Part shown: positions 18,393-58,836 of the stretch, in pieces
Layout of the letters: each line of letters starts with the position of its first letter
How positions within the stretch are numbered: position 1 is the first letter of the stretch
Source of the DNA: Taiwanofungus camphoratus
Taxonomy: Eukaryota; Basidiomycota; Agaricomycetes; Polyporales; Taiwanofungaceae
Direction: 5' to 3'
Assembly (NCBI GenBank): GCA_003999685.1
Contig: CP021228.1
Location: forward strand, 496,001-560,000
Length of the DNA stretch: 64,000 nt
Notes under the pieces: model-generated
What the model was told of the DNA's origin: nothing
The model's database searches: none
What the model saw: the letters and a program-made list of their open reading frames with translations, nothing else
Program-made: the position numbers and the translations under genes

Positions 18393-18434
<42 letters not shown>

Positions 18435-22766: not shown

Positions 22767-22780
22767 CGTGGGTCGCGTGC

Positions 22781-22850
22781 TCTTTTTTTCTTTTTGTTTT
22801 GCTTTCCTTGCTTTCCTTGCTTTCCTTGCTTTCCTCGCTTTCCGCTTCTG
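22781..22850. repeat. Pyrimidine-rich 9-bp minisatellite upstream of the gene start
   Basis: A T-rich tract leads into about four to five copies of ctttccttg just 5' of the minus-strand start codon at 22766. On the transcribed sense this is a purine-rich leader. It may be part of the promoter or 5' untranslated region. Confidence 0.7.
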
Positions 22851-24355
22851 CTGAGCTGTGGCGGAGGTGTGAGCGGGGCGCGGGGGGGCGCGCGGATAGC
22901 CGGACAGATAGTGGACGTGCGCTCACCGGGTGCAGGTCTGGTCAGTTCCGTGCTCGGGGCTCGGCCAGCAACGATGACAGGCAGGGAAGGCAGGCAGGCG
23001 GGCGGATCAGGTGTGCGTTTTGCGTTTCCCGTTTCCCGTTTTGCGTTTTCCGTTTTGCGTTTTTGCGTTTTTGCGTTTCGGCGTCTGCGCTGTTGCTTAG
23101 CCGCGTGAAGGCGACCTGATCGCCTGTTTGACGGCACGATGGCACGCGCTGAACCTAGCTCGGGGGACGCGCGACGTGCGACGTGCGACGTGCGAGAGGG
23201 GCAGGAGGAGACGACGCAGGGTACAGGCGAGGGAGCACGGGCAGGGCTTCGAGTGTACAGTCCGACCTGGGCCAGGCGGCGACTTGTCCAACGCGACTGC
23301 CCGTCTGGCTTCTCCGGACACGAGGCCGCACGCAGGCGTTACTCTGCACGCCCGTCTTTGCTGCGGCCGGGACCGGTGCTTCTGAATGAAAACTCGCGCT
23401 TCGGAATGAAAGCCTCGCGCTGCACGCGCTGATGCTGGTGCGGGACCGCTGATGGGACGCGCTGCGGCGAGACGCAGAGGAGGGGGGGATACACGCGGAG
23501 AAGATGGGAGACCGGCAGCACGGCAGCCTGCAGGCACTCTGGCTGGCACTAACTACTACTGCCAGCGACCGGGCGTCATGTCAACGATGGGGTGTAACGC
23601 GTAATGGTGCGAGGGCACGGTGGATGGAGGGCACGGTGGATGATGATGATGATATCCTGGGTCTGGGCGTGCGCGCGTGCGTGCGTGCGTGCGTGCGTGA
23701 CGTCGAGGGCGAGGGCGAGTGTGTAAGGTTGTGCCTAAATTACCGGTGGCTTCCTCAGGCTTCACCGGCACCGGCACCCACGGTCGTGCGCGCGTGTATC
23801 TGATAAGACTGCAGCGTCGGTGTGGGCGGTTGGGCGGTTGGGCGGTGCAGACGGGTTGGTGGGACGAACTGATGTCTAATAGACCGTTGTGTGCGCTGCC
23901 TGTCGATGCTCGAGGGCAGCGGTCAGCTTGTTTTTTTTTTGTTGTTGATGTTGTTGACCAGCGGGCGCTCGCGACCCAAACGTATTTCGCACGTGGGCGC
24001 GTCACGGGTTCTGTCAAACCGTACAACGATCAGCTGATCTCCGCGTCTTGACCGCGGAGCAAAAAGTTCCCAAGTTGAGTGTGCAGTGTGGCAAGGACAC
24101 GAAATTCGGAGGAGCGGTAGTTCGATGGGTCATAGACAAATGACTAACAAACTAGCCTGGGATTTCTCGGCGAGAGAGTGAATACATGGGAGAATATGTT
24201 CATTTGAATTTTGTTGATGATTAAAAGAATGTCAAGTCAAATTCATTGGTTACTTGCGTGATCTTCCCGGTGCGCGGCTCCCTTGCTGCTTGTCTGTGTA
24301 TCCGGGAAGGTTACTGAGTCTCAATCCTGAGAGGGGGAAAAAATGCTAATTTGTG
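22851..24355. other. Intergenic, with short tandem repeats
   Basis: GC-rich flank without a recognisable gene. It contains stacked short repeats: gttt(t)cc/gcgttt variants at about 23015-23085, a gat run near 23640-23650, and a (GTGC)n tract at about 23674-23700. GC content falls back to average by ~24.1 kb. Confidence 0.5.
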
Positions 24356-32393: not shown

Positions 32394-35300
32394 ATGTCGA
32401 CGACGATCACCTCACTTTTAAATTCTCTACACACACATCTTCAATCTCAGACTCAAATTCTTCCCACCCTGCATGCCCAGCTTGGACTGCCACCAACAGC
32501 TCTCACAGACGAACTGTCAACCCTCCAGCAGCAGTTGACAGAATGCATCGAGAGACAGATTGATTTGCGACGGAAGCAGGTGTCTGAGTGGATGGGGAAG
32601 TGCTCCGAGGTTGAGGAAGAATGCATACGATATGGCAAGGCTCTAGGTGGTCACGTTAAAGCTTCAGGAAACAGCGTTGGCGAGATCAGGAAGGAACAGA
32701 TACTTCCGAAACGATTTGAGATCATTTCCGAATATCAGGAGAAGCTTAGACAGGTGAGTATGGCTTGAATGGGCTACGGTACTTGAGCTAGCTCTTGGGG
32801 TTTGCCCGGTCTTTTTGAGCCCATGATACGAACCGTTATACCCAGCAATTTGGGTGACCGCGGCAGTGACAAATCCATCTTGTGCATGAAGGGTGTGTTG
32901 TAGCTGCCTCGAGGATGCCTCTGTCACTGGGTTGGCTTTTTTCCCAGCGGAAATGACCCCTGATAGCAACGCTTCCCGATATGCGCGAGCCATCACCATT
33001 CACAACTGTGGTCTTTCGCGCGTTTGGGCTTTCACGGGCTCAGACCCGGGAAACCAATAGCTTGCAACGCTATAGGTCGGAAAGTGCAGGACTTGAAAAG
33101 GCTGTACTTTGGTATAATGCCTGGCTTGACCTTGAACCAACTTCGGACCCGGTCTCATAAGCTTGGGTCTAGGTTTATTCGTCAAAAACCCATGAACATT
33201 CATGAATTTGGGCGGTTATCACCGACTAAGTGGCAACGAACTTGCATTACAAGTCAATTAACTTTGGTTTCTTCTTTGATTGCTGTTCAACTTTTTATGT
33301 CGGTGCTAGAGTGTTTCTGACAGATGTTGTCTGCACACAGCTTTATCATACCAAACTCGAGCAGTTGTTGACATTGACAGGCCGGCTGAACGCACTGTCC
33401 AATACTTTGGGACCAGAATTTTATTCCCGAGACATCGTGGAGTCTAGTCCGGCGATTGGCCAGAACGAAGATGATCCAAATTCACATCGCGACGTTACTC
33501 CTGAACGATTCTCGAAGTTGGAGAAGGAGCTCGTACGTGGTAAAGGCGAAGTGGTAAGTATGATAAAATAGCCTTTGCGACGTTAGCACTGAAGACGCCA
33601 CAGGCGAAGCGATTGACCCAGCTGTCTGCAACGATGGTTCAGATTGACTGGCTCTACACAGAACTCGGGATCGCACCACCTTCACTGGAGGACTTGCCCT
33701 CCGCCTCATCCTCAACATCAGGCCTTTCTCTGCATCCCAGGTCAACATCTTCGTGTAGCAACAGAACGACAATGTCAAACGTCTCAGATCCATTTCTCTC
33801 CACGTCTACCACTATTTCCATGTCGACGCCCACGCCTGCCGCGCGTTCCAAACACCCAACGCCTCTCCTCTTCCTAAGTGTTCTTGACGAGCCACGGGAA
33901 CCTCCCGATACTGAGTATCAGCGCGTCTTCGCACGATTCGTTGCTCGTATGGAGGAAGCATCTGATGAAGATCTGCAAGACTCAAACACAGCACATGTAG
34001 GCCTTGAGGGTGTCGAGCCTACGCCAGGCCTCATGGCCTGGACAGATTCGACCCGCGCCGGATTGGAAGACATCAAACGACGCAGGGAGGCGCATATACA
34101 AGCAATGTATGACCAACTCGAGGCACTGTGGCGGCGGTTGGGTGTCCCGGATGCTGACATGGACGCATTTGTGGACGCACAGAGGGGCAGCACAGAGGGT
34201 ACCGTTAAAGCATACGAGGAGGAGCTTGAGAGGATGTTGGAGCTCAAGAGGGAGCGAATGGGCGCATTTGTGGAGAATGCTCGAGCGGAAATTGTCAAAT
34301 TGTGGGACGAGCTGATGATTGGCGAAGAGGAGAGGGCGGACTTTGCGCCATTTGTAGACGGTAAGTGCCCTCAATCATAAGACTATTTGGACACTAATGT
34401 TGGCCATGACAGACGAACATACCGAGGAACTATTGACAATCCATGAGGAAGAGATCAAACGCCTCAAAGAGGAGCGGCGGCTGAAGGCTCCGCTCCTCGC
34501 AAATGTTAGAAAGTACTTCGAGATATGTGAAGACGAGAAGGAGCTAGCTGCAGCAGCTAGTGATCAAAGTCGCCTTCTTGGTAGAGGACCTCGAGACCCT
34601 GGTCGCCTGTTACGCGAGGAGAAGATGCGGAAGCGTGTTACGAAAGAGAAGCCCCGAGTACGCCTCCGTTCCGGCTGTTTCCTTTGCAAATTAAATCTGA
34701 TATATTTCTTCTGCCTGTAGCTCGAACAGGATCTCCTGGCCTCAATTCCTGCATGGGAGGCTGAAACAGGGAGTGTCTTCTTTGTTCATGGTGAGAGTAT
34801 GTTGCAGATCCTCATGGAAACTGTCAGTGCAGCAGACCAGGAGAACTGTAACAAACGTGGTAAAACGCAGGGCGGACGAGCAGGCTCTGTACCACCTCGA
34901 GCAAAGACACCGTCTAACCCTCCACACCATTATGTACCAATGCCAGGCTCTAACCATGGTGGTATGAAAAGCTCTGGCACGGTGACGCCAGCAGTGCGCC
35001 CAGGTTCAAGCATGGCCATGTCATCCCAATCCATGCCAAATAAGCGCCCTCGGCTTGGGGATTCAACATCTGCATATAACAATGTTCCGGTCCCGAATTT
35101 GCCCACGTCCTTGGGAAACAGCAAGGGTCCGGGAGGTCATCGAGCCGCTTCGCCTACGAAAATTCCGGGAAAGACCCCAACTATTACCTCCTCCCTGCCT
35201 CGTCCAGTATCGATCGCGATGCCCGTGCCAAGACCAGGAACCCTGCACCATACGCTTGGTCATGGCAGAGTGCCGTCCTCACAACAACAACAACAACAAC

Positions 35301-38786: not shown

Positions 38787-40563
38787 ATGTCTTCTAATGC
38801 AAGTAACGCGGAGTTCATATCTATTCTCGAGGCCGGGTCAGTCTGCCACATTAGCTTGCACAGTGCCAATGACGTTAAGCTCTAATCTCGTTATTAGCGA
38901 GACGCAGAGCTACTGCCAGTCAGCAATTTCCGGTGAGTGGAGCCATTCTTCAATATACGGCGTGCTCGGTGACCGTCCTTGCCTGATATCTGACATAGCC
39001 CTCGTTTTGTATGAATATATCATTACTTTCGGTCAAGAGGTTCAGTTTATTTGGGGCAGCGGGGCTACAGGTGCCATTATCATATTCTATCTCAACCGAT
39101 GCGTAATGGTTGGGGTGGGGATCATGAATGCATTATCCATAATCAATTGGAATGCAAATGCGGTATGTTGTGTCGATTTCACCGATCGAAGATGTCCTCA
39201 CTCGTTATGGGTCTCAGAGGTACTGTATCATCACTTGATCACCTACTTAAAATTGAAGCTCATACAGTACTCGACATCCACCTCAGCTGTGAGGCAGTGA
39301 CGCTATTGTATCAGATCCTGAATTTGGTCTCGTTTTCTATATGTGCAGGTGAGACGCCAGACCCTCATTGCTCCTTGAATTGTACCATTCATCATGACAT
39401 CAAAGTCGTGTCGGCCCTTCGCGTCCATGCCGTCAGTGGTCGCGACTGGCGCATTGCCTTGCTTACTTTATTATTGGGGTTGGTGCCCGTATGGACTAAC
39501 TTGGTATTGTTCTCTTCTGTTGACCCGAATATCCAGTCGAACTGATGTGCGTTGATTTCTGTAGTTTTATATTATTGAATCCTCGTTTATTGTGGTCTAT
39601 TTCTCATTTATCAATGTATGCTGGGAGAAATCGGGTATTTCCTTGACATCCAACAAAAGGTTATCATATGAACTTAGCGTTGTCAACGAATACTGACTTC
39701 AGTTGTTTCTGTGACAGAGGTATCGCATGCATTCTTCGAGGCTGGCTTGTATTCTTCCCCAGATACTCACATATAATAACAGTGGTTATTGCTACCCGGG
39801 TGTGCTTGATAACATCTGATGTTATAGTATTACTGGTGACTTGGTATTACACATATGAAGCTTTTAATGGACCTGCTCAAAAGAACACTAAAACATCCCT
39901 TGCTCGGCTTTTGTTGAGAGATGGTGAGGGTCATAGTTCAAGTTCTACCTGACATGCGCAGGATCTCAAATGTTATCTCTTTATATCAGGTACATTGTAT
40001 TTCATGTATGTCGGAATTTGTCCATTGGCTCGTAAACAAGCCAACTATTATCCCGCCGCTAGACTGCTCTTAATGTTAAACGTCATGCATTTGAGTTTAT
40101 TCATCATCAATGTAAGTTCGTTTTCACTGATCTATTGACAATGATTGATATCGTCCCAACGGATCCATCAGCTCTCCGCAGACATTGTTGAGTATTTCCT
40201 GGTCCCGTCCGTTCATTTACCAGTCACGACATTCAGACATAGCTGATGCCTATCAGTGTATCAGCAGTTCTGATATCCCGATTCCTGCTCAATATACGTC
40301 AAGTTCGGTACTCTACCAAGGACGACGTCGGGTCTCGAAATCAATCTATGGTCAGAGCAACCTACCGATCATACTCCTCACAGATGTCGACCGTAGCATT
40401 TACTTCCGTTGGAGATGTGGAAGCGACGTTCGACAACGAGCTGTGTTCGAGTACGCCTGCAGGTTGTCAAGCTTCCGAAACAACTCAAGATTCGTTGTCA
40501 AGCAGATGCAGCTATCTGGAAGATGATGACGGTGATGTCATCCACAGCACAGACGAGGCATAG
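38787..40563 (+). CDS. DUF6533 seven-membrane protein, array copy 1
   Basis: Thirteen exons give 351 residues: 38787-38836, 38898-38932, 38999-39162, 39218-39219, 39287-39348, 39406-39503, 39565-39659, 39718-39719, 39783-39923, 39990-40005, 40063-40111, 40172-40206, 40257-40563. The N-terminus carries the DUF6533 signature: YCQSAIS-ALVLYEYIITFGQ, then FIWGSGATGAIIIFYLNRC. Further membrane helices follow: SALRVHAVSGRDWRIALLT, VVIATRVCLITSDVIVLLV, TLYF-ILLLMLNVMHLSLF, and the terminal VLISRFLLNIRQVRYST before a polar tail. The family is a basidiomycete group of GPCR-like seven-helix proteins of unknown role in the membrane. Two predicted exons are only 2 nt (AG at 39218 and AG at 39718); both are needed for the frame. 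The exact start rests on the exon-1 length shared with copies 4 and 5 (50 nt). Confidence 0.82.
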
Positions 40564-41596
40564 CGAGTTTATACAATGATCTTCGGACATAAAATATGTC
40601 CATCACGTCTGGAGAACTGGAAGTTGTATAGCGGTCATCGCTGAGGATTTTTTGTATGTCATAGTCCGCTCAAATGTTCATTGTATCAACAGATCTCGCC
40701 TTATTTCATACTGCATGCGTCTCTGTAAACGGTCTGGTAGCGTTTATTGTCTGTATGAACAATTAGTCTGACATTTCTCGTTTTTGAAGGCAGATGCTTA
40801 GCGGAGGATGCTACCGGCTTATTTACATAAGCATACAGGTCTTGCGGCTGACTGCCAGCTGCCATCAGTTCCTTCGAATTCCGTGCTCGGAGTCATTCAT
40901 ATAGAAGACGCATGCTACAGTTGAAGCGCTGAAGGCGTATTCAACGTGTCTAATTAGCGTGGAAAGGCATCCAGGAGACACACTTGAAGTCGCTTACGTC
41001 ACGGTCACATTCCAGCGTCTGTCAACACCGCCTCAAGTTCTGCGTGCCTAAGCTTGCACTCCGCACTTCCATTCATCACCAATTCATCACAATCAGATTC
41101 TCTGGTCGCTCAATCCTGTGTAAACCATCTGCTCGTTCACATTCACTGCGCTTGATTGTGACTGCGGACACCGTTGCATGTATTCCCGAAATCTGTCCGC
41201 TGTCAGCGGCATATCAGATGTCTGACATTGACTGTCGCTCACAGCGGCTCGAGACTTGGCTCGTTCGACAAAAGCCTGTTTCGGCTGTATCAGGGACCGG
41301 GCTATTGGTAGATTGACCTGTGCTAGATGGTGTCTTCAGCCACATCTCCGCCTGGTGCTGTGAGAATTTACCCTTGAAAGCGCTGGCAATGATCCTTCCT
41401 AGAATGCAGGTGTATGTATTGATACGTGCATAACCATCGTCCATTTCTCCGCCATGAACAGATTGATGTCGCTCAACAGTCATGCTTCTGTCGCCGTTGG
41501 CCGAGCGAGACTTATAGAGCCGAGAGAGAGAGAGAGCTGTGAACTGTCAGCTTCTACATTCCTTAACTGTCTCTTGAGGTCACAGTTCCACCACTC
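40564..41596. other. Spacer between array copies 1 and 2
   Basis: No coding exon supported. A short (ga)n run, agagagagagagag, lies near 41521-41534. Confidence 0.4.
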
Positions 41597-43356
41597 ATGA
41601 AGGATGACATTGGGCGTAGTTGGGCGAATACTATCTCTATTGTGCAGAACAAGTCTGTTTTGATCTTTAGATCCTCTTTGTGAATATTGAGAAATTGACA
41701 TTGATCTCGTGGGCAGTTTTATCAACACTTACTGTCAGGCAGCAATATCTAGTGAGTAGTAAAAATGTTCAAGGCGTCTATGATTGTCTTGTCAACTCAT
41801 TGTGACAATGATATAGCTCTAGTTCTATATGACTACATCATCAGCTTTGGTCAAGAAGTGCAATTCATCTGGGGTGGTAGAACTAGTGCCGTGGTTGTAT
41901 TCTACGTCAACCGTTGTACCATGCTCGCACTGAGCATTGTAAATACGCTAATGAACTGTCCATGGAATACTATCATAGTAAGCTTCTTTACTTTCATTGG
42001 TCAGATGCATTTTCATCCGTAGTATTCCAGAGGTTTAGTTCTCAACAATGTCCATCTTGATTCAATAGCGGCATTCTGATCTCATTCTGGTTTCTAGTTG
42101 CAAGGTCGTAAATTTGTTCTATTTTGCGGTGGAGATGATGTCCTTTGCAGTACTAGCAGGTGAGATATGGTATCATCAAGTGTCTCCCCACTCATCGTCT
42201 TTGATCACAGTTATTTCGGCCCTTCGTGTGCACGCTGTTACTGGTCGAAACTGGCGTCTCGCTGTGATTACTTTAGTACTTGGCCTAGTGCCTGTAGGCA
42301 CCAATATGGTGAGATACGCTCCTTTTCGTTGGTGCATGTCAGGCTAATATGTATAACTCACCTTGTAGTTCAATGCTTTCAGAACATCGTATCTAGTGAC
42401 AGCTCTCTCGTCTAGTGTCTTTGTTTGTTCAAATACGTCAAATGACCACTTTGCAAGTAATAAGAAGTACGGATCTTCGTTCAATAGATTGTATTGTTGT
42501 ATACTAATGCCATAAAATTAAGACGTAATGCACTCTCTATATCTGAGTTATCCTTGTTTGAGTCCTAACAGGTCCATTACTCGTCATCCCAGTACTCATT
42601 GCCACTCGAATATGTCTCATTGTGTCCGACCTCATCGTCGTTGCTGTAACTTGGTATAACACTCATGATTTTATGCACCCTATTCAATCGCACGTGAAAC
42701 ACTCCCTTGCTAAATTATTAACGAGAGATGGTACGTCTTTTCCGGGACAGAAATGCGTTATTGCTCAATACATATACATCACACTCAGGCACTTTGTACT
42801 TTTTGTACGTCAGCTCAACCCTGCTTGACTGTCATCTGCACTGACCTCGTGATGAGGTTACTTCTCATGATCAATATTATACATATAATCCTGTTCACGC
42901 TTAACGTCTGTCTCGTCATCATTCCTCGTACGGTGTTTCCATCCTGAGAGTATTTCATGCAGGTATTCCAGGATTTTGCTGGCTTCACAGCTCCGTCCGT
43001 CCGTTCTCTCGCTCTTGATCGTCAAACTCTGACCCCCCATTGATAGTATATCATCGATTCTCATGTCTCGTTTCCTGCTCAACATTCGACAAATACGTTA
43101 CAAGCTAAATTCTCAATGTCTCTCCGCCAGTCAGTCATGTTGTTGCCACACGAGCCAGCCACAATTACTGCCGACAAGTGTGAGATTCACGACGGGCTTT
43201 GTGGGCGACGCCGGCTACGCTTTCACAGATGACTGGTGTCTGTGCTCAACTACAAGTTCGCACAACGATCTTGGGACGAAAGGAGACACGTTGAGAGGGG
43301 AACACTGCTGTCAGACGGATTCTGATATTGCGAACGAGAAGGATGATCTCGAGTGA
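41597..43356 (+). CDS. DUF6533 seven-membrane protein, array copy 2
   Basis: Exons 41597-41652, 41717-41751, 41817-41977, 42031-42032, 42098-42159, 42211-42308, 42369-42466, 42523-42524, 42593-42730, 42789-42804, 42857-42905, 42963-42994 and 43047-43356 give 352 residues. Key segments are TYCQAAIS-TLVLYDYIISFGQ, FIWGGRTSAVVVFYVNRC, SCKVVNLFYFAVEMMSF, SALRVHAVTGRNWRLAVIT, LIATRICLIVSDLIVVAVTW and SSILMSRFLLNIRQIRY. The tail is polar and acidic. The first 2-nt exon is AG; the second is AC, which gives Lys-Leu where other copies have Arg-Val or Arg-Met. It has the 32-nt form of the penultimate exon shared with copy 3. The start was chosen because it is the only upstream ATG that reaches a donor in phase 2. 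Confidence 0.78.
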
Positions 43357-43985
43357 CAAAAAATCAGTATACGAACCGATAAATGCGACTTTTCAGCATG
43401 TGTATTCTACGTTAGTAAATGAAATATCTGAACAAGTCCCGATGCGTGATTTCACAGTTTCATTCTCTGAAGACGTTGGCATGATAATAAGGTCAGCAAA
43501 TACACAGCGTACTCAGTCTCGAAGGTTGCAACAAGTCTCGTACTTGGCAGGTTCTAAGTCGCTGCTATCATGGCATTCTATCATGATGTCAAAATCGTAT
43601 GTGGTTTCTTGGAAGCGCTGAGTTGAGAACAGCGTCGGAAGGGACTAAGCTGATTGGTTGATACTGACGCGCTAGTAACTCGTGGCAGGCATCCGACGGG
43701 CTGTTAAGTAGCTCTACGAGACCTGGCACGGAGTATAAACTGTAGAATTTAAAATTAAACTCGTGGCTAACTAGGGTTAACACGCCGTTGTGTTTGAAGG
43801 CTAATCTATGAGCCTATGAAGACATACCTGTTTCTTACCTTGCTATGGACAGATGTGTGCATGTCTTGCGACTAGCTTGCGATTCTTCGAAGCTTGCTAT
43901 TGACCACCATCTGATAAAGGCAAAAGCTGGGGAGCTGCTGCATATACCCCTGGGGGGTCGCCCTCCGAGGTAGACACAGTTAAGG
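43357..43985. other. Spacer between array copies 2 and 3
   Basis: No coding exon seen in about 630 bp. A frame running to 43621 has no relation to the family. Confidence 0.4.
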
Positions 43986-45776
43986 ATGTCGTCGGACGCG
44001 AGTAATACACTGCGGACCGTCCAGACCGAGTCAGTGTACAGATTCCTTTATCTTCCTGTTCATCCGTACTCATTTCCTCAATAGCGAAGTTTACAATTAT
44101 TGCCAGGCTGCGGTGTCTGGTAAGCCCTTATCATCGATACTGCATCATCTGCATTGGGTCCCATTCAACCTGACTGACATCGTTCAGCCCTCGTCCTGTA
44201 CGAATACCTTATCACGATTGGTCAGGAGGCCAAGTTTTTTTGGGGCAGCAAAGTGACAGGCGGTGTCATTATATTCTATCTGAACCGGTGTATCATGCTT
44301 GCATTGGGTATTGTTGGCGCGCTACAGATATGTCCATGGAAAACTAGCGTTGTGCGTTTTTTTTTCTTTCGTTCAGCTGGAAGTATTTCCTGACTTTATC
44401 GCTGGTTTAAGAGGTCCGACGTGCATTCTGCTAATTATAATTTGAGATTGATCTGGGAGGTTATATGATCTAGTTGTGAGATCGTGGACCACTTGTACCA
44501 TGTCTTCGAAGTCATGTCATTCGCTATGTGGGCAGGTAGGTGATGGCTTACACTTGACTATGTTTTGAGGCATCATAACATATCATTTTGAAGTGGTCTC
44601 TGCTCTTCGTGTTCATGCTGTAAATGGGCGAGACTGGCGTCTTGCAACGGTCACCTTAATACTGGGTTTGGTGCCCGTCGGAACGAATATGGTATGTCGT
44701 CTCAATGCAAAGAATGGTAAAGCCCCACGGGTCTCACGAGACGTTTACTAGCTTAACGTCATTAAAACATCGTCGAAAGTTGCGATGACTCTGTATAGCA
44801 ATAGCATGTGTGTGAACGCGTCCGACCTGTCTCTGACAATCCAGTACAGGTGCTTAAAATTTAGTTTACTCTTATCGAGATAAAGGTTGCTAAACCCAGT
44901 TCCGATTTGTCTCCAGAGGTATGATGATCCAGCAGTATGAAGGTGCAATCTATCTGACCGGCAGACTGTACATCCGTGTAGTGGTGATTGCAACCCGTTC
45001 ATGCGTTATCGCCTCCGATGTTATAGTCCTCCTGGTCACTTGGTACAACACGTATGAATCTGCTAAATGTCCTACTGGGGTGAATGTGAAAGCCTCCCTA
45101 GCAATGCTTTTACTTAGAGACGGTGCGTTGGTATCTATTCGTACTTGAAGTTTACGGCTCTTCATGTCGCTTACATGTCACTTAGGCACTCTTTATTTCA
45201 TGTATGTCCTCCCTGGGGCAAGCTATTGTAGCCTACATTGACTTCTCAATAAGATTACTCTTAGTCCTGAATATCTCGAGCATGGTCCTATATCTCCTCA
45301 ATGTACGTCTATCAAACTGTGCCAAAACCATGTACTGAAAAGAGTTTGGCGCACAGCTCTCTCAGAATGCTTCTGTTTTCACAATCTCGTTTGTCATCCT
45401 TTCGCTGTCGCATGTAATAGATGACCAATATTTCGACAGTGTGTCTACCATCCTTATCTCTCGCTTTCTGCTGAACGTCCGCCGAGTGCACTATTCCACC
45501 ATTGTCGACATGGACACGCTATGCCTATCATCCGCCTATTCATACCAAACTGGAGATTCACGATCGCGACCATCGGATGTGAGATTTGCATCTACCTTCA
45601 AGGATAATGTGGATGTGGTTTTTGATCATGAACCGTCCTCATCTGGGACACTTCATGATGACATGGAAATGGCTCCAACTGTGTCAGCAAGTCGATATGA
45701 AAGTCTGGAAGACGACAGCACCGGCACAATAGACCATTGTCTAGTTGCGGTGAACGTTTCTGGCTCGTATGTGTAA
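43986..45776 (+). CDS. DUF6533 seven-membrane protein, array copy 3
   Basis: Exons 43986-44029, 44085-44119, 44188-44351, 44412-44413, 44474-44535, 44594-44691, 44752-44849, 44917-44918, 44982-45122, 45186-45201, 45254-45302, 45357-45388 and 45440-45776 give 359 residues, the longest of the five. It reads NYCQAAVS-ALVLYEYLITIGQ, FFWGSKVTGGVIIFYLNRC, SCEIVDHLYHVFEVMSF, SALRVHAVNGRDWRLATVT, VVIATRSCVIASDVIVLLV and STILISRFLLNVRRVHYST. An N-glycosylation-type NAS lies in the loop encoded by the exon ending at 44849. Both 2-nt exons are AG. Exon 1 is 44 nt instead of 50. The last exon is longer than in the other copies and encodes an acidic, Ser-rich tail. Confidence 0.82.
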
Positions 45777-46778
45777 ACCAATAGGATTTTTGGTAAAGGA
45801 TTTGGTGGGTCCGTCCCTTCAAACGCCTCGTAGTGCTTGATCTCTGATATTGCCCCTCTGACGGTCAGCCCCCACTTGTGCCGTCCCTCTGGATCTCACC
45901 TGCCATTGCTCCCTGGTAGTCACGCTTATGATGACTTGCGCAGGCGCTCAGCCCGAGAGCTGCACTGGCGTTACCGGCCCTAGTCGCTCTACGATCCCGA
46001 TGGCTGCATTACTGGACACATCGAAGCACGTGTACGATTGGGCCCTTCGGTGCCTACTACCATTCATATGCACGTCTACTCTCCCCTCGCTTGAACCCAA
46101 TCATTGTGTTGCACCTTGTGCAATTGAGTTGTCGAGTTGTCCTGTTTTGAAGCGGGTAGCCACACTTATTTTCAATGACGCAGCGGCGACATTTCTTTGA
46201 CATGTCAACGTAGTCAAGGCAGTGTATGTTAGTTCGACTAGCGTATATGCCGCAGCGGCTACTTTCGAATTTCAGCTTTCCTGTGTCACGCTGCAATCTT
46301 TCATGCAATCTCACCTACCGGTCAATAAACTTAAACGATTAGTCAAAAGCATGACATAAGTGACTGTCTAGTCTGTCCGGGTCTATATTGGTGAGCGGGA
46401 ACACAACTTATGGGCTTGTATAGACTGACTGACCAATATGCAGCAAAATCATATATCTCTGTATGTGTCGAAGGTCATCATCCTTATTGAAGCTTCCTCG
46501 AGGTACCTCGGTACAGCAGTTGATATGCCTTGCTCATTCATGTGTCAATGTCCCTAAGAATTTGTGACATGTGATCTGTCAATGTTCATTCCGACCTTTG
46601 CTCGGAGCGCTTTGAGTGGCATACAGGTCAAGCTCCATATCACTGCACCCAGAAAAACTGTACATGCCTTGATTGGGTTTTTTTGGTGCATATCTAGGCA
46701 TTCGGACCTGTCAAGGCTCACCATTTTCTCTTCTATACCTTCCAGAACTTCCTAGCCTTGCGGTAGTGATCAACACAA
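45777..46778. other. Spacer between array copies 3 and 4
   Basis: About 1 kb without a supported gene. Frames near 45928-46200 and 46564-46755 show no family similarity. Confidence 0.4.
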
Positions 46779-48521
46779 ATGTTAACGAACACAAGCAATG
46801 TGAACCCCACTTCATGTGTAGAGAAGAAGTCAGTGCCAATTAGTATTATCACGATGACACGCTGCTCACTATTGTACGAACAGTTCAATTCTGAATTATT
46901 GTTTGGCAGCAACATCAGGTAAATTCTAGGCTTCGATATATTCTCCAATGCCTTACCAACAGTCTCGTTATCCATTTATTTCAGCTCTTATCTTTTATGA
47001 ATACGCAATCACCTTGGGCCGTGAGATTCAGTTCGTGTGGGGCAGCAAAATGTCTACTGCTGTCATGATATTTTATTTGAATCGGTGTAACATGATCGGA
47101 TTGTTGGTGTCCAACGTGTTATGGTTCTTCCCTTGGGACACCGTCGTGGTGTGTATTCAGTTATACGATGGAAGGCCCTTCTGACTTAGTTTGCCTCAGA
47201 GGTTGTATATTCGTTCAACGGTCGGAGTGATTCAGCTGAAATAATAACGTTATTGGGTATATGTGCAGCCGCGAAGTGGTGTACCTCTTAAGCCATTGTA
47301 TGACTATCACGAACTATGCCATGTGGGCGGGTGAGATTTTCTATATGTCTATCGCGTCCGTTCGACTCATTGTCTGTCTCTCAAGTGGTTTCAGCATTTC
47401 GTCTATACGCCGTCAGTGGTCACAATTGGTGTCTCGCGACAGTCACTTTTATATTGGGATCTGTTCCGGTTGGCACGAATATTGTTAGTGTTCCCGTTGA
47501 TATTGTTCTTTGAAACTATTCTGTCATGTCGGTCCAGTTTACAGCTTTGAAGATATCGTATGAAATGGCAGAGAGAACCTGTTCAGACACATTAAACCTT
47601 TCCTTGACAATCATGCATAGGTCCTTGTACTACGATCTTGTATATTTGATTGAGCACTGATTTTGGTTTGGAATCTCTAGAAGTCTGATGAGTTTTATGG
47701 AACACGACTGTCCTGGGCTGATACTCTGTCTCATTGTAGTGACCATTGCTACTCGTTTGTGCGCCATCGCATCTGATCTGGTTGTCCTACTCGTGATCTG
47801 GTACCACACATATGACATTGCCAAATGCTCTATGCAAACCATCGCCAGAGCGCCCCTCGCTCGGCTATTGTTAGCAGATGGTCAGTCTAACATGATTTTA
47901 TCATTATTCGAGTCTCGTACAAAGTTCGATTGATGTCATACTAGGTACCTTGTACTTTCTGTGAGTGACTCTTGAGACGTCTGCGAGGACAACGTTGACC
48001 GTCTGAGGTAGAATACTTCTACTGTTGAACGTAGTGCATTTGAGCTTGTGTGTCCTGGATGTTTGTCTCCTTCAAGTTTCATCTTCTACATTTAGTCGTG
48101 TCATGTTGAAGAAACTCTGGTCAGATCTTCTATCATGTAGCAGGTGTCTTCATCGTCCCGTCTGTCTTTTTCCCGGGCTGTCTCTAATACTACCTGTGGC
48201 TCATGACCCTGCGGCAGCATGTCATCAATTCTAATCTCGCGCTTCGTCTTGCGCCTTCGCAAAGTATACTACAGCGCGGACGACACGGAATCTCGACGTC
48301 CATCTTTCATCCGTACAGTCGACGTTCGAAGCTCTCAATCACAGCAGTTGACTATAATGTTCGCACCAGGATCCACGGGCAGCAGAGTGCCTCTGGAGGG
48401 TGGGGGTGGGTCATACTTACTTGCATCAGAGTATCAGGGTGGCCACGACTTCACGTCGAGCGAAGCAATGGATGATTATGGACGGATTGCAGATACTGAA
48501 TTCGTGGAGGAACAACTGTGA
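46779..48521 (+). CDS. DUF6533 seven-membrane protein, array copy 4
   Basis: Exons 46779-46828, 46884-46918, 46985-47148, 47200-47201, 47269-47330, 47386-47483, 47538-47620, 47681-47682, 47740-47880, 47945-47960, 48012-48060, 48125-48159 and 48218-48521 give 346 residues. It reads NYCLAATS-ALIFYEYAITLGR, FVWGSKMSTAVMIFYLNRC, SREVVYLLSHCMTITNY, SAFRLYAVSGHNWCLATVT, IATRLCAIASDLVVLLV and SSILISRFVLRLRKVYYS. The Cys that follows the first micro-exon codon in all other copies is replaced by Arg here. The second 2-nt exon is AA, giving Arg-Met. The exon ending at 47620 is 83 nt, shorter by five codons than in copies 2 and 3, as in copy 5. Confidence 0.8.
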
Positions 48522-49523
48522 GCTGGGGCGAGATGTTATACACGGAACTATTGGGTCAAATTAATTGATTCAGGTCCCTATGTCTTTTCTTGTCGTGTTC
48601 AATTCTGATACATTCTGACTGTATTAATTCCATTGAAGCCCTGCGGATATTGCTTACCCCTTCATATTGATGATGTGTGCTCTGCCCGGGAATTTGGACT
48701 TGCCGGCTGTCTATGACCAAAATCTCAGATTGACAACGGAGGATTGCGCAGGGCCTCGTCAGCTCCCAAGGAGGATTGAACGTTTCGGATAACCGCTGGT
48801 CGGACCCATGTGTACCATAACAACTGGGTCAGAAACAGCGACCGGAACTCAAGTGCAGCACTGCTGTACAGCTCGTCGGATGCAACGCACATGTTCTTGT
48901 CAATGTGAAATGATTCTATTTTCTCTCGCGATCTATCATGGCAAGTTCTCATTACAATGGTTACCGTCTCAATTTCCACATCGGCGCACCCCTCGAATCA
49001 CGGTTGTGATGTATATACATATTCCACCCCTCCGGTTCTGCCTGCGCCCTCATGTGCTTATCCACTCCTTCAATCATACATCCGTACTGTATGGATCAAA
49101 GCCTTGACCATCACGGCAGACCATCGGACTTCTCTGATCACGAGCATGCGACACTGCCTTTTGGTGGACGCATGAGACCATGATCAGAGATGCGAGCAAC
49201 TCGACGGCACTCCGGGTTTTCCTCAATTGACCAGGGGTTGCAGATCTGGAGTAGACAACACTTAGTGCGAAACAAAGAACTGAAGGTCTTTTTCCTCGTC
49301 CACATGGTACTGTATCAGGGCGCACCAAGAACGCGCCGGCCAGGGTGGTCTTGAGGGAGCAGGTGTGTTGATCTGCACTGCTTATATGTTCGCCGTTGCT
49401 GAGTTATGTATACGGGTGGACAAAAACTTTCAAAGACTTGCCTCAAAGCACATCCGCAAGCAGCAAAGCTCGCGAACTCTCTCATACCTTGCGATATTTT
49501 ACTTCGACGGTTATCGTTCACGG
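48522..49523. other. Spacer between array copies 4 and 5
   Basis: About 1 kb with no supported exon. It should hold the promoter of copy 5 near its end. Confidence 0.4.
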
Positions 49524-51180
49524 ATGCTAGCAAACCCAAGTAATGCCATCATCATTGCTGATGTCAAGAACTAGTCAAGTTCTAACCCTCCATGCACATG
49601 TCGTCAAGAGACTGACTGCATCCACAGCTTAGTTGCAAATTACTGCTCTATAGCGGTCTCTGGTGTGTGCTGAGCATAGCAGCTTACCCTACATGTCGTC
49701 TTTACTACCTGATCTAGCTGTCGTCTTCTATGACTACGTGATCACATTTACCCGGGAGGTTCAGTTCATGTGGGGCAGCAGGATGACATATGCTCTCCTC
49801 ATATTTTATCTCAACCGGTGTAACATGGTTGTGCTGGTAGTGACCAACGTGTTATGGCTCTTCCCTATGGTTGCTACCGTGGTGCGTTTCCTTTCCTACA
49901 TTGGACCAAGGCTGGAACTGACCTCGCGGTCGGTTCATTTCAGGAGTTGGTTACAGATCTCATGTATCTCTTTAGGTAGACTGATATCTTTCACTTACCT
50001 CTAGCTGCAAGGCGTTCAATCTTTTCAGTGTTATTCCTGAAATTATGAGCTATATGCTGTGGTCAGGTGAGGCCGTCGAGGGTGTGTTGCTGAATGTGTT
50101 GATCCTCGTCATTGTTTTCTAGTGATTTCAGCTCTTCGTGTTCATGCCGTCAGTGGTCGCAACCTGGGTCTTGCTACGTTGACTTTCGTATTAGGGTCGG
50201 TGCCTGTTGTGACGAATATAGTGAGCGTTCTCCTCCACTGATCCTGGAAGATTGATGCCTGACGTTGGTACAGGTGAACCTCGTCAAATCATTCTATACA
50301 GTGATAGACAGCATGTGTCTGACCGGATCGGAGCTCTCCTTGGCAGTACAGAACAGGTTCTGACCCTCTTCCTTGTTTATGTCGTGAAGCTAACATGATA
50401 AGTAGGGGTACGACGAGTCCTGAGTCTGGGATGTTTGACTGATCATTTTGTTTGCTTGTAGTACTCCTCACTACACGTTTATGCGTGATTGCGGCCGACC
50501 TCATAGTTCTTTGTGTAACCTGGTACAATACGTACGATACTGTCAAACATTCTGCTCAATACAACGTTAAGGCATCACTTGCTGGGCTATTATTGAGAGA
50601 TGGTGAGTGATGTGGCAGGTTCAATATTATGTGCAACAGCCTCATTGGTGCATCTTTCTTACAAGGCACGTTGTACTTCTTGTAGGTCTGACCGAGCATG
50701 TTGTAGGTGACAATACGATGATGTTACCGCAGGTTATTTCTGCTGTTGAACATCGTGCATACGACGTTATACGTGCTGAAGGTTTGTGACGGTTATCTTT
50801 GTCTCCCTTGCTGGTATCATCATGCTAAAGTGAATTTGGCTAGCTTTTCACCGACGTAATGGGAATATTCATAGTGCCGTCGGTTGCTTTCCGCGTTCAC
50901 ATGGTATAAAAATCGCTGACTGTCCAGCAGACTATTAACTATCCTCATCTCACGCTTCCTCTTGAACCTTCGTCAAGTCCGCTACTCCACCATTGATGAC
51001 ATGAACTCGCGACCCCAATTCACTAGCCATTCATACGACCTCGAACAGTTGCAACTATCAGATGTTGGCTTCAGAGCCGAATTCGTGACCAGCGGGGCAC
51101 CGATTGACGATGAACCGGATTCATCTCTGCCCATGAATTCTCAAGATGACGTTGAAGTGGCTTTGAGTGCCGTGATGTAG
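49524..51180 (+). CDS. DUF6533 seven-membrane protein, array copy 5
   Basis: Exons 49524-49573, 49628-49662, 49718-49881, 49944-49945, 50005-50066, 50123-50220, 50274-50356, 50406-50407, 50462-50602, 50666-50681, 50733-50781, 50844-50878 and 50931-51180 give 328 residues, the shortest of the five. It reads NYCSIAVS-AVVFYDYVITFTR, FMWGSRMTYALLIFYLNRC, SALRVHAVSGRNLGLATLT, LLTTRLCVIAADLIVLCV and TILISRFLLNLRQVRYST. This copy departs most at the micro-exons: the first is GA (Asp instead of Ser) and the second is GG. The Trp of the conserved NW pair is Leu. It may be the least constrained copy, but the frame is intact throughout. Confidence 0.78.
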
Positions 51181-51717: not shown

Positions 51718-54700
51718 CTACCAATGAGTTAGCATGGTTTGTGCACATTCCTGCATGAAGTTAGCAGAGGCACGAAAAAAAAACAGATCATACATACTTT
51801 TAGGCGAACCAGATTATATGCTAGGGAAACATTTACAATGGTTCGCAGTTTCCGACGCATGTCAGTTTTGTGCACACTGAGTTGGAAGTTGCCAGAGCAT
51901 TGACAATGACGGGAAATGTTATCTGACTGAATCCGCTTGCATTTGGAACATCGCAGATCTTGTTGAGTAAACTTTTGCTCCAAGTCATACACGATGTCCA
52001 TCAAGATGAATTCGATCATGGTGCGGTCGTATTCTCCGCCACAATTAGCGCAAAGCCAGCGTGTGTTGACTTCAAGGTTATTTGGCAGGAGCTCTGGATC
52101 ACGGCAGAAGTCGAAATCCCGAAGACCATCACAATGTCGGCATGGCACATTGGACAATCTCAGAGGCTCGCATGGATTTTGGAAAGTCGCTTCATTTGCG
52201 AATTCCCTCACTCCAACTAGCTCCAGTAGGTTTCGCTTCAGCAAGCCAATTTCTATCTGATAGTCTTTTGCCAAAGAGAAGACAGCACAGGAGAACTTGA
52301 CAAATTCCAGGACCGGATTCGTAAGGTGCAGATGAGAGCCGGGAAGGAGAGGGAATTCCCATTGGGCTAGAGCATCTTCGTCCGTCATGGCTTCACGATG
52401 TCTTTCCAGGATGCTCCCTACTGTCTTCAGAAGTCTCCGTGTGAGACGGCGAGCGATGAAATCTCGGCTAACTTCTAGCTCCTGTATCTTTGAGGCATCG
52501 CGTTGAGTGGCGTCAGGAGCACCATTAGGTAACACTCGCAAAGGCGCTCTGGACACTTCTTTGTTCCTCTGACTAGCTCTAAAAAGTTCCACTAGGAAGA
52601 AACGGAGCACGTTTCGGAAATCACGTTGAATAGCAGGAGGTAAAAATGATTCAATGTTCCATCGCATCTCTACCGAAAGCTCCTCCGGTGGCTCAATCGC
52701 CAGCGGATCCTCGCAGACCACGCCTCCCAAATTTGCTTGGTCCATGAATAGCAGAAAGTCATAGAATCGTTCAGTGTGAAGATAGACGTGTTGGAAGAGC
52801 TCGTGAGATGTTATAGCCGTTGTGATATAGGTAGCGTACGCATGTGCTGTTCCGGGAGGCTTAGATGTGACCAGAAGGATTCGTCCAAAATCTGCATGGA
52901 CAACGTGTGATCCCAATCGTTTAAACTCGGCGAGCATTTGGACAAAAGTCTTGCGCATCAGACCATGAATGAACCGATGTAGGCTTGGTTCATACATGTG
53001 CGAGGCGCTCGAACTTACCCAACGCCAGAAATGATCGATAGCGATTGTTGCAGGGCTTTCGAAGTTTCCTTGGATTTTATCGAGCAACCATGTTTTGACA
53101 AGGTTCTTGAGAATAGCAAAGGTCTGTGTGGATACGTTGGAATCACCAAGAGTAAGATCGTGCTGCGAATCTCCTCCAGCATATTCATCCAGTGTATGAG
53201 ATGAGTCGAAGGCTGTAGCACCGCCGCTACCCTCTAGCTCGTTCACAATAACAGAGTGCAACACTGCATTGACCGCGAGATTGCGAACTGTCAGTTCGAG
53301 GCAGACGTTAGAGTAACATCCAGACGAAACAAATTCAGTCTTCGGCAAATCTTCCGATGGCCTGGTATCGTTTTCAAGACCTCCCAGGTCCGGACGTCCC
53401 CTTGGTGACCACCATAAGACGATGTCATGATCAGCGAGCCTACGAGCAAACTCAACGTCCGAGAGCAGCAAAGGCTGATCGCCTTCGATATGACCAACAG
53501 GTATGTCATAGTAGTCTGCCAAGGCAATGGTGCGATCCAACCATGGACCCATGGATAAATAACGATTAATCATTTTTTGGGCGACACTTGATTGCCAAGG
53601 GAAGACATCCAACGTATGAGGTATCTTAGCTTTCGACATCGATAAGACAGGAAATTTCGAAAGTCTTGGTATATGGGTGTCGAAATACGTCTGTTCTCTG
53701 CCAGACGATATGACCACGATGTATGATTGGCCCTCGACGAGGCCAAGTTCCCGCGAGACGCCCTTCAGAGCTGTGAAGTCATTGCCATGGTATGTCGTCG
53801 TGAACTCGCAGGAGGCAGGATACGATATGGATATACTGGAATTGAGGACTTGCTGCCGGCTGCGGAGAATGTTCATGTAAAGCTCGGGAAGACGGGTTAT
53901 CGGTTGTCGGCGAGTTGCAGGATCAACTATATGAAGCCGGACGGGCTCTCCAGGAATGAACAAGGCAAAAACGTGCACTGGGGCGGTGCTGGAGCACGCA
54001 TGATAGAGAAAAATGTACTTTCCCGCCCTCCCTTCTCCGAGGTATCTCTGTTTGGACATCGGAGCGCTAGCACGACCAAGCTGGTCTAGACTGAAACCAA
54101 CATTTTCAGCTCTGTTCAGCGTCATACTGGCATCTTCACTTGTGCAAGTCTTTCCCAGTTTCAGGATCGCTCGCATGAAAAGTGGAAGCTATAGAGGTGC
54201 TAATGAGCATATAGCCTTCCGGTAATAATCATGTTCGATCTTCCTATGAGTCCTTACCTGGAGTTCGTAGACACCATCCACATTGGGGTCGTTCGTAAGA
54301 TCTATGAAATGCTCCTGGCCTTCCAGGAAAACGTCCTCGCGCACAGAAATTTTGTAAAGATTTATGCATTGACGATCCCGGGGTAGAGTCCGAACTACTC
54401 TATCGGAAGAGTATATGTCCTCCTTGAAGTGATCCGCTTTGGGTGAGGTACGGAAGTGGAGATAAAACTCACGGGGAATGCGAAGTGGTACAGAGATGAG
54501 GTCTGAGTCAACAGAGAGCCACATGGTGAAGCGACCAGGGACCTTGTTAGGTCGAATCTGTATAATGTCCCAGCGACCGTTTGTTTTCATGCGAACACCC
54601 TTGAACATGGTTGGAATGGCAGCAGAGGTATCATCTTCCCGGCGATGCTTCCAACGGCGACGCATGCCCTTTAGCCAAGAAGCATAATCTTTTGATGCAT

Positions 54701-57700
54701 CGGGTAAAGGCCCCTTCAACACATCATTGTCCAGCATCGCTTCAGGGGTATCCTCTCTGCGCCTAGTGTTACGGTTGACGACCGCTATGCGCAGTCGGTT
54801 ACCATGACTAGGTTGAGCTGCCAAGTCTTCAATATCCCGTGAAGCCTGATTTGCCTGATTTGTTGGTCTGAAAAAGTCCGTAACTTTGTGTTGACGGAAT
54901 TTATCCTCCAGTGCAGCCACCCGCCGATGCAGCCAATCCGGATGACGAATACGAGGGACTGGATTGGAAATTTTTTGCATCGCGGCCGGAATTGTTATGA
55001 GCTTTTGGATCACAGATCCCAGACGCTCAATATAATATTCCCAGTCCAGGATGGATCGTATATCGAAATTTGTCAAGCTGTTGTCTTTCAGCCATTTGCG
55101 AAGATAGATCTGTTTGACATTCTCATCCGCAGAGAAAATGGCTACAGGAACAGCCCGTTCTGTGACTGGAGCACCGCTTGGACGAGCCGAGATGATGAAC
55201 TTGCATGCGAGGCCCTTATCCTTGACCATCTGATTACCAAGGAATTCCGCCAGGCGTTTAGCAGTACTAATGGATGTTGATTTCTGACCCCCATATTCGG
55301 CCAGAGTCTTGGACATACTCCTATTCTCGGCGATGAGCTCCACGAGTTCGTCGTCCTCGAGGCTCTCAGCTTTACTGAACAGAACATCGAGCCATCGGTC
55401 CGCTATTTGCGCAACAGCGGCATAACACTCTTCAGTAGTAGTACCCAACAAAAACTTCTCGAAGATCTGCGACTGGAATATTTTGATGAGTTGCAGCTCG
55501 CCCCGCCGCTTCACCTCAAATCCTTTTAGTTCAGCGAGTGAGCCGTCATCGTTGAAGACGGCATAACGCTTCTTCAACAGCTTGTCCTCCTCCTTAGAAG
55601 ACGGCAGAATCATAGCTCTATATGGTCCATCCAATTCAAAAAATATGGAGTTCTCGCTATGCACCGTATAGCTTCCAGTTTCTGTGTCGAGATCATGGTA
55701 CTGATGGTTCGTAAATTGTGCATGGACCAGATGGTTCAACATGGTGCAAGGGTACGAGAATCCGATTGCCTTGCCATTTGCCAGCTTGAACTTGAAATTC
55801 TCTGGAAAGACTCCTGGAAGCATGCACCAGATCCCATCGGTATCCAGCTCCAGGGGACGACCAATTTGTTCTACGAGTTGTCTGGCCATCTGAATAATGG
55901 TTGCGCCGGTCAAACAAGTGATCCCAGCCATCTCCATGGAATGCCAACGGGCACCCTTACGCATGACGTATCCATAGAACGAGTTCAGGATGCACTTGTG
56001 TGCCAACTGCAGGGAATCATAGAGAACGATCATCTTCTTTGCTTCGTCGACCTCTGCGATAGAGCGCTGCTCCGCCAGAACGGTGTCGAGATTCTTCTTC
56101 CAAGTCTTGTGTAGTCCTTTGTATTCATATCGACGATCCCTGAATCGACGTACTGTGTCTATATAGAATGGGTTCTCCCTCTGGCAGATGATTGCTTCAC
56201 GATTCTCAACCTTGGTGTCCTTGATTTTCTTGTAAACCTTGCGCGAATAGTCTCCGAGGCGTTTTTGTAATAGTGCTGTTTGTTCTGACTCAGATAAATC
56301 GACAAACCTGCGTTGAGGGCCACCAGGACGCTTGGGAGGGAAGGTTTCTTGATTTAAAGCATGTTTGATCATGTTGAATTCGTCTCTCCTGGCGGGGAAG
56401 AATTCACCCCTCCAAGCCCACGTCATACGACGATCGCAGGCTTTGCCAGGACGATTGTAGTCACAAACGGCGCAAACAGATTCATCTACGACAGAATCCG
56501 GTTGCAATCGATTGGACAACATGATGTTTGGGTACATAGCAGCAACGTCCAAATGGTAGATCAATGGTTTGTCCATGCGCTGCGGGTGATCTCGTATTTC
56601 TTCTAGAGCAAGTTGGATCTGATTCTTGATCTCGTCGTAATTCGTCACGTTCTCAAGAGAAGACTTGGACTCTTCAACGATACAAAATGTTAATGCCGCA
56701 TCGAGTTCATCGATGAGCTGGAAGTCTAAGTGTGAGCGCAGTGAATAGGTTATTCTCGATACTCGAAATATTAACCTTTTGCACTGCTGACGGCTCTATC
56801 TTGAACTGAGTAGAAATATCACTCCGGAAGACTCCAGCTTCGAGCGCCTCCACATGCCCACCGACATATGTTTCAGATGCCAGTAAGTGTCCTTCATACA
56901 TATTACCATGTTCCTCTTCGTGCCTGTTCGGCATGATAATTTCTCCACGATATGCTTCCACCTGTGTGGTATTTTAGAATAGGCCATAAAGCAGTGGACA
57001 TCAGTACTTACCATAAGCAGGGTTTCACAAAGAGTTCCAGTTCCTTTGCGTAAGACATCATCCGGACGTAAAGGAATGATGTTGCACAGTGAAAATATAA
57101 AAGGATGAACATATTTCATGTATAGATAATACGTTGCGACAGCATCGGACACGGAGTATTGTGCGAGTGTCTGAGGTTGCTCCATTGCGTATCTACGAGT
57201 CGTTAATTTTAAGAATACTACTTGTGAAGGCTTTCAGGACTATACGCACGGTGTCATGAGCTCCGGATCTAATTCAATGGGATCATATCCCAGTTTAGCC
57301 GTCGTCACAGCTTTCAAACCCTGACTACCCTGTGGCAGGTACGAATCACGCTTGACCCATCGGAAGCAATCCATGTGTGCGCAGGTTCGGCTCTTAAATT
57401 CGTCTTCAGAATCCTTGGCAAACCCGATCTCGAGGAACATGTCGATTCCGTGTACCTTAGCTCGGGCACACAGGAAAGGGAAATCAAAGAAGTCCCCATT
57501 GAATGTTGCCATTACAGTTGGCTTTACCTCCTGACAGTGTGAAAAGAAACGACGAATAGTAGCAGCCTGTGACGTACGTCAGCGTCGCCGAGGTAAACAC
57601 ATCATGAACATATATACCTCGTCTGGTTCGTTGAAAATAGTGAAAGGACCTTCGTAGCCTTCTTTAGGTGTGTATTCGAAATCTTCGATGTCCTCACTAA

Positions 57701-58836
57701 CAATTTCACGATTCGTAATAAGGAAGCCTTGTCCATCAACCATGTAAGATATCATCATAACTTGGTCAATGGCTTGGTCAGGAAACTTGAGAGGAGCCTT
57801 GGTCGTCTCGATATCGTACGCCATCACGACAGGGTCTGCACGTTTGACACGTTCAACGAGCTGTTTGAATGCTGGTTGTCCGGCTGTAAAGGTAACGGCA
57901 TACCAATGACCGACGCGGATGTCGTTGTCCATGGCGACGCGTAAATAGTACGGCACGTCGAATTCGCGAATGTCGATTATACCCTCTCGCGGATCTTTGT
58001 CGCGACCTCCGGAGGCTCTCGCCTCACTTGCACTCGCCTGCCATTCTCCTTCTGCTTCGATGAATACACTCGCATTAGCTGCAGCATTGACCACTTCCGC
58101 ATACGCATCCACGGCGTCAAGCTTGGCACTGTTCGCAAGTGCAAGCGGCATGATGTCACGTCGGACGGCAAGGAGGTCAGAGACATTCCTGAAATGAAGC
58201 TGTAAATAAAGTCGCCTGTGTCCCAAAAGATGATTGGGCAGTTGCAAATCTTCCTTCCGCTCCCGCGTTATACGGCATATGTGAGCTTCATACCTCTTCA
58301 TTAACCATTCCTCAATGATGGTCTCCATTCCGGTCTATATCGCTAATTGAGTCCATCAGAACTGCGGAGAATATCCGCACACGCACCTTGCATGCAATGT
58401 AAAAGTACGGCTCATACTGATAGGTACATTTGAACATTCCCCCATCATCTTGTACAAAGTAAAAATCAACTGCAGCCTTTCCAGATTGCCAATCTGCATC
58501 TTTCACTAATGTCTGCACATACTGTGAGAGAAATAAATCGGCCAATAAGATATAAACACCTACTGGGTGCATGTTGATTAACCATCCCTCCCTTCGTGTG
58601 CCCTCTTGTATTCTTGCAAACCCAAGCTTCTCATCTACGTCATCGCTGATTCTAACCTGTTCAAATCTTTCCGCAAGCTGGGTACCATCGTCCTCCCGTT
58701 GCGGCTGGGTCTCTGCGGGTGCTCCTCCGCGACCTCTGCCTCTTCCTCGCCCGCCACGAAACGAGCCGTTTCCTCGATATCCATATCGCGAGGAGCCTCG
58801 GCCTCTACGAGACCCTGCAAACGATCCGCGGGTCAT
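51718..58836 (-). CDS. POL2: DNA polymerase epsilon catalytic subunit
   Basis: Nine minus-strand exons give 2,227 residues: 58564-58836, 58387-58512, 57618-58334, 57250-57566, 57012-57192, 56776-56961, 54258-56717, 51798-54188, 51718-51750. The N-terminus is RG-rich. The proofreading exonuclease is intact: Exo [11 protein letters not shown] near residue 307, Exo [11 protein letters not shown] near 395, Exo III YSVSDAV near 492. Polymerase motifs follow: DVAAMYPNI (A) near 657, [18 protein letters not shown] (B) near 841 and ELDTDGIW (C) near 892. A Cys cluster typical of the catalytic domain is at [13 protein letters not shown]. The inactive second polymerase half follows, then two C-terminal Cys modules (CRHC...CANC and CSKC...CQC). 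Pol epsilon copies the leading strand in the nucleus and takes part in checkpoint signalling. The last exon is only 33 nt. All motifs argue for a functional gene. Confidence 0.97.

Follow-up and report, generated by a model that had tools for sequence, protein, structure and literature searches.

Paired dinucleotide exons predicted in five tandem DUF6533 genes of Taiwanofungus camphoratus

How can five neighbouring genes keep a reading frame that a single intron between conserved splice sites would break, at the same two points, in every copy? The puzzle is posed by a stretch of 64,000 nucleotides (nt) of Taiwanofungus camphoratus (assembly GCA_003999685.1, contig CP021228.1, positions 496,001-560,000, forward strand), here called the window, which carries five tandem DUF6533 genes on its plus strand (c1 to c5). 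The answer that we favour, and consider quite probably correct on the evidence of the DNA itself, is that each gene encodes a DUF6533 membrane protein with two obligatory exons of only 2 nt, each set between ordinary introns of 49-68 nt, and that the cluster probably holds ten such exons. One of them, at site 1, falls in the loop between transmembrane helices (TM) 2 and 3, with a conserved donor after TM2 and a conserved acceptor before TM3; the other, at site 2, falls at the end of extracellular loop 2 (ECL2), before TM5, and was absent from an earlier note on this DNA.

The five genes are matched by the PF20151 profile at 42.5-48.8 bits, against a curated cut-off of 24.1. Their cores, each spanning the sequence from the acceptor of intron 1 through the RDG exon, are as follows:

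38999..39923, plus strand: core of c1, DUF6533 gene 1 (PF20151, 45.5 bits)
41817..42730, plus strand: core of c2, DUF6533 gene 2 (PF20151, 48.2 bits)
44188..45122, plus strand: core of c3, DUF6533 gene 3 (PF20151, 42.5 bits)
46985..47880, plus strand: core of c4, DUF6533 gene 4 (PF20151, 48.8 bits)
49718..50602, plus strand: core of c5, DUF6533 gene 5 (PF20151, 42.9 bits)

The profile covers 46 positions and its matches stop upstream of site 1, hence it is of no use for testing the residue at the junction. A tblastn search with exon peptides recovered the five copies, every other match having an E value of at least 0.1. The DUF6533 domain is described as basidiomycete-specific, and seven transmembrane helices are reported for one protein carrying it, SNB1 (PMC10949477); by simple hydropathy of the core only, which extends from about TM1 to TM5, each of our copies has several TM-like stretches. 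The proportion of synonymous differences between copies (pS) is 0.57-0.76, near saturation, and the ratio of non-synonymous to synonymous proportions (pN/pS) is 0.36-0.53, over 182-188 codons. The reading frames therefore look as if selection had maintained them, and the frame breaks must somehow be resolved.

At site 1, the proposed exons and their flanking introns are located thus:

39218..39219, plus strand: micro-exon AG of c1, introns 39163-39217 and 39220-39286, Ser
42031..42032, plus strand: micro-exon AG of c2, introns 41978-42030 and 42033-42097, Ser
44412..44413, plus strand: micro-exon AG of c3, introns 44352-44411 and 44414-44473, Ser
47200..47201, plus strand: micro-exon AG of c4, introns 47149-47199 and 47202-47268, Ser
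49944..49945, plus strand: micro-exon GA of c5, introns 49882-49943 and 49946-50004, Asp

These positions and dinucleotides had been given by the earlier note, and all are exact. The rest of its description of the site also agrees with the letters. The outer donors (GTATGT, GTAAGC, GTGCGT, GTGTGT and GTGCGT from c1 to c5) each stand behind a complete codon, that is in phase 0, and the exons to the right begin with one leftover base followed by TGT, TGC, TGT, CGC and TGC, respectively; a single intron with the conserved GT and AG ends is out of frame in all five copies. The gaps, said to be 120-130 nt and about twice the local intron length, measure 124, 120, 122, 120 and 123 nt, against 51-68 nt for the reference introns of the same genes (n = 28). 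Once two bases are kept, the flanking introns have the claimed 51-67 nt, the codons are Ser in c1 to c4 and Asp in c5, and the protein alignment passes the junction without a gap, with the residue pairs Ser-Cys (c1, c2 and c3), Ser-Arg (c4) and Asp-Cys (c5). As a separate observation, c4 has Arg at 47270-47272 in place of the TM3-start cysteine of the other four copies, and the ECL2 cysteine is found in all five.

To what extent is the length of 2 nt dictated by the sequences? We enumerated all in-frame, stop-free structures of one or two introns with GT donors, AG acceptors and intron lengths of 44-130 nt. With the conserved ends of site 1 fixed, the middle exon may have 2 or 5 nt in c1, 2, 5 or 11 nt in both c2 and c4, and only 2 nt in c3 and c5; thus 2 nt is the only length common to the five genes, and it stays so when GC donors or introns of at least 30 nt are allowed, which adds further lengths in single copies. 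In c3 and c5, when introns must have at least 44 nt, the conserved ends admit no in-frame GT-AG structure other than the 2-nt one, which also has the best summed splice-site score (15.3 and 12.0, respectively).

The same situation recurs before TM5. The exon ending ECL2 has two bases left over (AA in c2, AG in the other copies), and two bases also stand at the start of the next conserved exon, ahead of a VIATR-like block (LLTTR in c5). The frame is broken by the same amount as at site 1 in all five copies, across gaps of 105-132 nt. The proposed features are:

39718..39719, plus strand: micro-exon AG of c1, introns 39660-39717 and 39720-39782, AGA GTG = Arg Val
42523..42524, plus strand: micro-exon AC of c2, introns 42467-42522 and 42525-42592 (42571 is an alternative end for the second)
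44917..44918, plus strand: micro-exon AG of c3, introns 44850-44916 and 44919-44981, AGA GTG = Arg Val
47681..47682, plus strand: micro-exon AA of c4, introns 47621-47680 and 47683-47739, AGA ATG = Arg Met
50406..50407, plus strand: micro-exon GG of c5, introns 50357-50405 and 50408-50461, AGG GTA = Arg Val

Here too the five copies share no middle-exon length but 2 nt, also with GC donors or introns of at least 30 nt, and the alignment is ungapped at the junction when the two bases are kept. The 2-nt structure has the top score among all options in c3 (17.1) and the best score in c5 (8.9), a copy lacking any single-intron solution.

Could such a pattern arise by chance? Searching for an acceptor AG, m bases and a donor GT with both introns of 49-68 nt, we found that m = 2 fits all five copies at each site. 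No other spacing between 0 and 15 does so: at site 1 the best is m = 0, which fits four copies through the string AGAGGT, and m = 5 and m = 7 come next with three copies each. At site 2, m = 0 occurred in one copy and the remaining values in none, while a looser intron limit of 44 nt lets other values reach at most two copies. Dinucleotide shuffles of site 1 produced an in-frame, stop-free 2-nt solution at a rate of 0.09-0.16 per copy, and at neither site did any of 4000 shuffles produce one in all five copies. As an empirical null, we took real GT...AG segments matched in length from other parts of the window, judged by the motif only and not by frame; the rate at site 1 was 0.025-0.061 per copy (340-393 segments per length, introns 49-68 nt) and over both sites 0.015-0.074, with products of 3e-7 for site 1 and 5e-8 for site 2. 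These products assume that the copies are independent, which the near-saturated introns make reasonable, not exact. Similarity between copies has a mean z of -0.1 to 1.6 for introns and of 3.4-12.3 for five exon pieces, so that the motif common to the copies does not simply reflect intron sequence held in common. The earlier note had called the site 1 exon real. This part of its claim is well supported, if short of proof, by the comparison of the five sequences, in which the 2-nt exon is the only common solution, aligns without gaps and beats both nulls.

Several observations weigh against these exons. Donors were scored with a matrix built from the 28 introns of these genes, in which the references themselves range from -0.8 to 11.6 by leave-one-out; the middle donors of site 1 score -1.8, -4.3, 0.4, -5.3 and -4.8 (c1 to c5), four of them under every reference donor, the second donor of site 2 lies under all 28 in three copies, and the first donors of that site are low too (-0.3 to 5.4). 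The weakest of the ten micro-exons is AC of c2 at site 2. By summed score the 2-nt structure tops all options only in c3 and c5, at both sites, and the earlier note was silent both on the ambiguity of c1, c2 and c4 and on how weak the middle donors are. Moreover, single-intron structures are open at site 2 in c1 to c4, and this site with its outer ends was picked after its frame break had been noticed. The inferred introns, for their part, are 49-68 nt long in 20 of 20 cases, and their best branch-like pentamers, which are CTNAY in 18 of the 20, score 4.4-7.3 compared with 3.8-7.3 in the references, on a scoring of low specificity. The case for the micro-exons is one of frame and cross-copy consistency, not of splice-site strength.

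Which other structures deserve consideration? The one with a small but appreciable chance of being right concerns site 2, where c1, c3 and c4 might have an ordinary intron and then a longer TM5 exon that varies between them, with another single intron in c2 and with c5 broken by an in-frame TGA. In c1, c3 and c4 a normal intron (58, 67 and 60 nt, respectively) is indeed followed by an open, in-frame exon, and c2 is open with an intron of 115 nt. Single introns, whose summed scores are not strictly comparable with those of two-intron structures, exceed the 2-nt solution in c1 (6.5 and 5.4 for two options vs. 4.5), in c2 (8.7 for the 115-nt intron 42457-42571 vs. 4.1) and in c4 (9.2 for 47627-47683, with another donor, vs. 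6.5). The copies, however, do not resemble one another in the stretch that would become exon (mean z 0.7); we prefer to read this second interval as an intron because its divergence is like that of introns. It also contains an in-frame stop in c5, and in all five copies an acceptor AG stands exactly where homology resumes and a GT stands two bases past the first acceptor. At site 1, some of the copies might have longer micro-exons (5 nt in c1 and in c4, 11 nt in c2), which would lengthen the loop by one to three residues. We regard this as unlikely, even if such exons outscore the 2-nt ones in c1 (11.0 vs. 9.7), c2 (14.0 vs. 10.9) and c4 (13.4 vs. 7.3): neither length is open to c3 and c5 with conserved ends, GT donors and introns of at least 44 nt, and the residues would be inserted where the 2-nt reading aligns without a gap.

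Single introns with copy-specific ends could likewise restore the frame at site 1 with no micro-exon at all. With GT donors, they are found in four of the five copies (10 in c1, 3 in c2, 2 each in c4 and c5); c3 has none and gains one with a GC donor. Examples are 39225-39286 in c1 and 41978-42068 in c2, a 91-nt intron that scores 11.6 and so exceeds the 10.9 of the 2-nt structure, to which can be added a donor shifted by 2 nt downstream in c3, c4 and c5 (GC in c3 and c5, GT in c4). Among 13 listed of the 17 found, three have a normal or short length (50, 55 and 62 nt), but the other ten have 74-118 nt, beyond the reference range; the shifted donor is not open to c1 and c2, and no such structure is common to all copies. 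This explanation is very improbable. We give hardly any credence to the remaining one, in which the whole gap is a single intron removed stepwise, in recursive or stwintron-like fashion, leaving no bases. The AGAGGT string of c1 to c4 does yield a zero-length junction at site 1, but this junction is missing in one copy there and in three copies at site 2, under the 44-nt intron limit, and complete removal of the interval, as in a stwintron, leaves the frame broken in all five copies at both sites.

If the 2-nt exons are what they seem, how would they be spliced? At site 1, introns of phase 0 and phase 2 would flank the first two bases of the Ser codon (Asp in c5), directly preceding the TM3-start cysteine (Arg in c4); at site 2, introns of phase 2 and phase 1 would flank the last base of an Arg or Lys codon together with the base that opens the following codon. 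A Ser-Cys pair, which we presume to be found at the start of TM3 in other DUF6533 proteins, and the loop length after the ECL2 cysteine, which presumably fits only the micro-exon at site 2, are not counted as evidence. Because two sets of splicing factors hardly fit on two bases, splicing would proceed by intron definition, the introns being removed one at a time. The two bases may thus act first as the start of an exon behind the acceptor, then as the last two bases before the donor. AG fits the exonic end of a donor; where it forms the micro-exon, as in 6 of 10 cases, it may favour pairing of U1 with the weak donor that follows. RNA folding of the five site 1 gaps gave z values of -1.09 to 1.44 and no common fold. 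Skipping of a micro-exon would shift the frame and truncate the protein, with a stop 1, 68, 1, 61 and 11 codons later in c1 to c5 after omission at site 1, and 12, 22, 25, 12 and 36 codons later after omission at site 2; inclusion would therefore be needed for the full protein, and could serve as a gate on expression.

In evolutionary terms, the likely origin would be the gain of a second intron at a distance of two bases from one already present, at a time before the genes were duplicated. The tandem duplication of one intron into two was considered as a source and left no trace, the two introns of the same copy giving z values of -1.7 to 1.8 against each other. The earlier note had also called the micro-exon ancient, and this holds only relative to the present duplications, given the pS values above; no orthologue outside the window was found in the non-fungal collections searched. 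Of these two collections, viral and prokaryotic in content, the viral contigs had no relatives of the spliced c3 protein or of the five-copy alignment, and the genome contigs had none of the five-copy alignment. A broader proposal, for which we see an even balance, is that these genes represent a seven-helix, receptor-like subfamily having two dinucleotide exons per gene (ten here), kept through the replacement of intron sequence, with weak donors that gate production of the full protein.

If true, these 2-nt exons would be among the smallest exons known and would not be an isolated oddity in fungi, since one gene may need two of them and one cluster ten. Automatic gene models would be expected to be wrong at both sites of such genes. 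The five copies would offer natural replicate substrates for the study of an intron-definition spliceosome facing back-to-back splice sites on two bases, and a handle on how introns come to lie two bases apart.

The same genes have a further small exon, of 16 nt, which carries the GTLYF block between two short introns and is placed here by intron coordinates:

39990..40005, plus strand: 16-nt exon of c1
42789..42804, plus strand: 16-nt exon of c2
45186..45201, plus strand: 16-nt exon of c3
47945..47960, plus strand: 16-nt exon of c4
50666..50681, plus strand: 16-nt exon of c5

Elsewhere in the window, the cluster is adjoined by a gene for the catalytic subunit of DNA polymerase epsilon (51732-58334, minus strand), recognized in three open frames by matches to the thumb, polymerase, exonuclease, DUF1744 and zinc-finger profiles. 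There are also matches to MAP65/ASE1 (33544-34377, plus strand) and to Arm_4 (5991-6767, plus strand). The region 15800-23300 has short tandem repeats, and both of its strands carry long open frames that overlap, such as one of 961 codons on the minus strand at 16627-19509 and one of 859 codons on the plus strand at 16993-19569; four frames tested from this region had no Pfam match.

How do the DUF6533 exons compare with known systems? The closest likeness is with the 1-nt exon described for CYP621A of Fusarium, which has the support of 18 SRA reads and of a relative without introns (PMC12940212). In both cases a fungal family shows a frame break between conserved exons that is shared by its members, and the gap is doubled, being 139 nt in F. 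graminearum against a median intron of 56 nt; the centre of the gap reads ag|N|gt there and ag|NN|gt here. The report on CYP621A (PMC12940212) describes one site per gene and relies on cross-species orthologues and reads, whereas we predict exons of 2 nt at two sites per gene from the sequences of tandem paralogues. The same report cites exons of 2-5 bp from Arabidopsis, Drosophila and human, which belong to the size class of ours and are not fungal. Among land plants, the 1-nt exons of APC11 and VPS55 have experimental support (PMC8831610, PMC4674806). They resemble the present ones as ultra-small exons between two introns and are described as missed by annotation; they differ in their plant origin, in their length and, for VPS55, in donors of the form GTRAGT, where the middle donors here are weak.

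Other fungal systems share only part of these features. The stwintrons of filamentous fungi, as described, also combine two consecutive splicing reactions in one interval, but their nested introns leave no exon bases, while full removal here breaks the frame. P450 genes of Phanerochaete, likewise a filamentous fungus, have small exons beside introns of 45-55 bp, the shortest exon given being 6 bp (PMC1184071). The microexon described for Trichoderma Xlr2 is similarly small and from a filamentous fungus, but it functions as a regulated switch. Neither a 2-nt exon of a fungal gene nor a micro-exon of a DUF6533 gene stood among the matches listed in searches of one open-access library. Ultra-small exons are thus already known, and what would be unusual in Taiwanofungus is their predicted occurrence at two sites per gene, in tandem paralogues and with weak donors.

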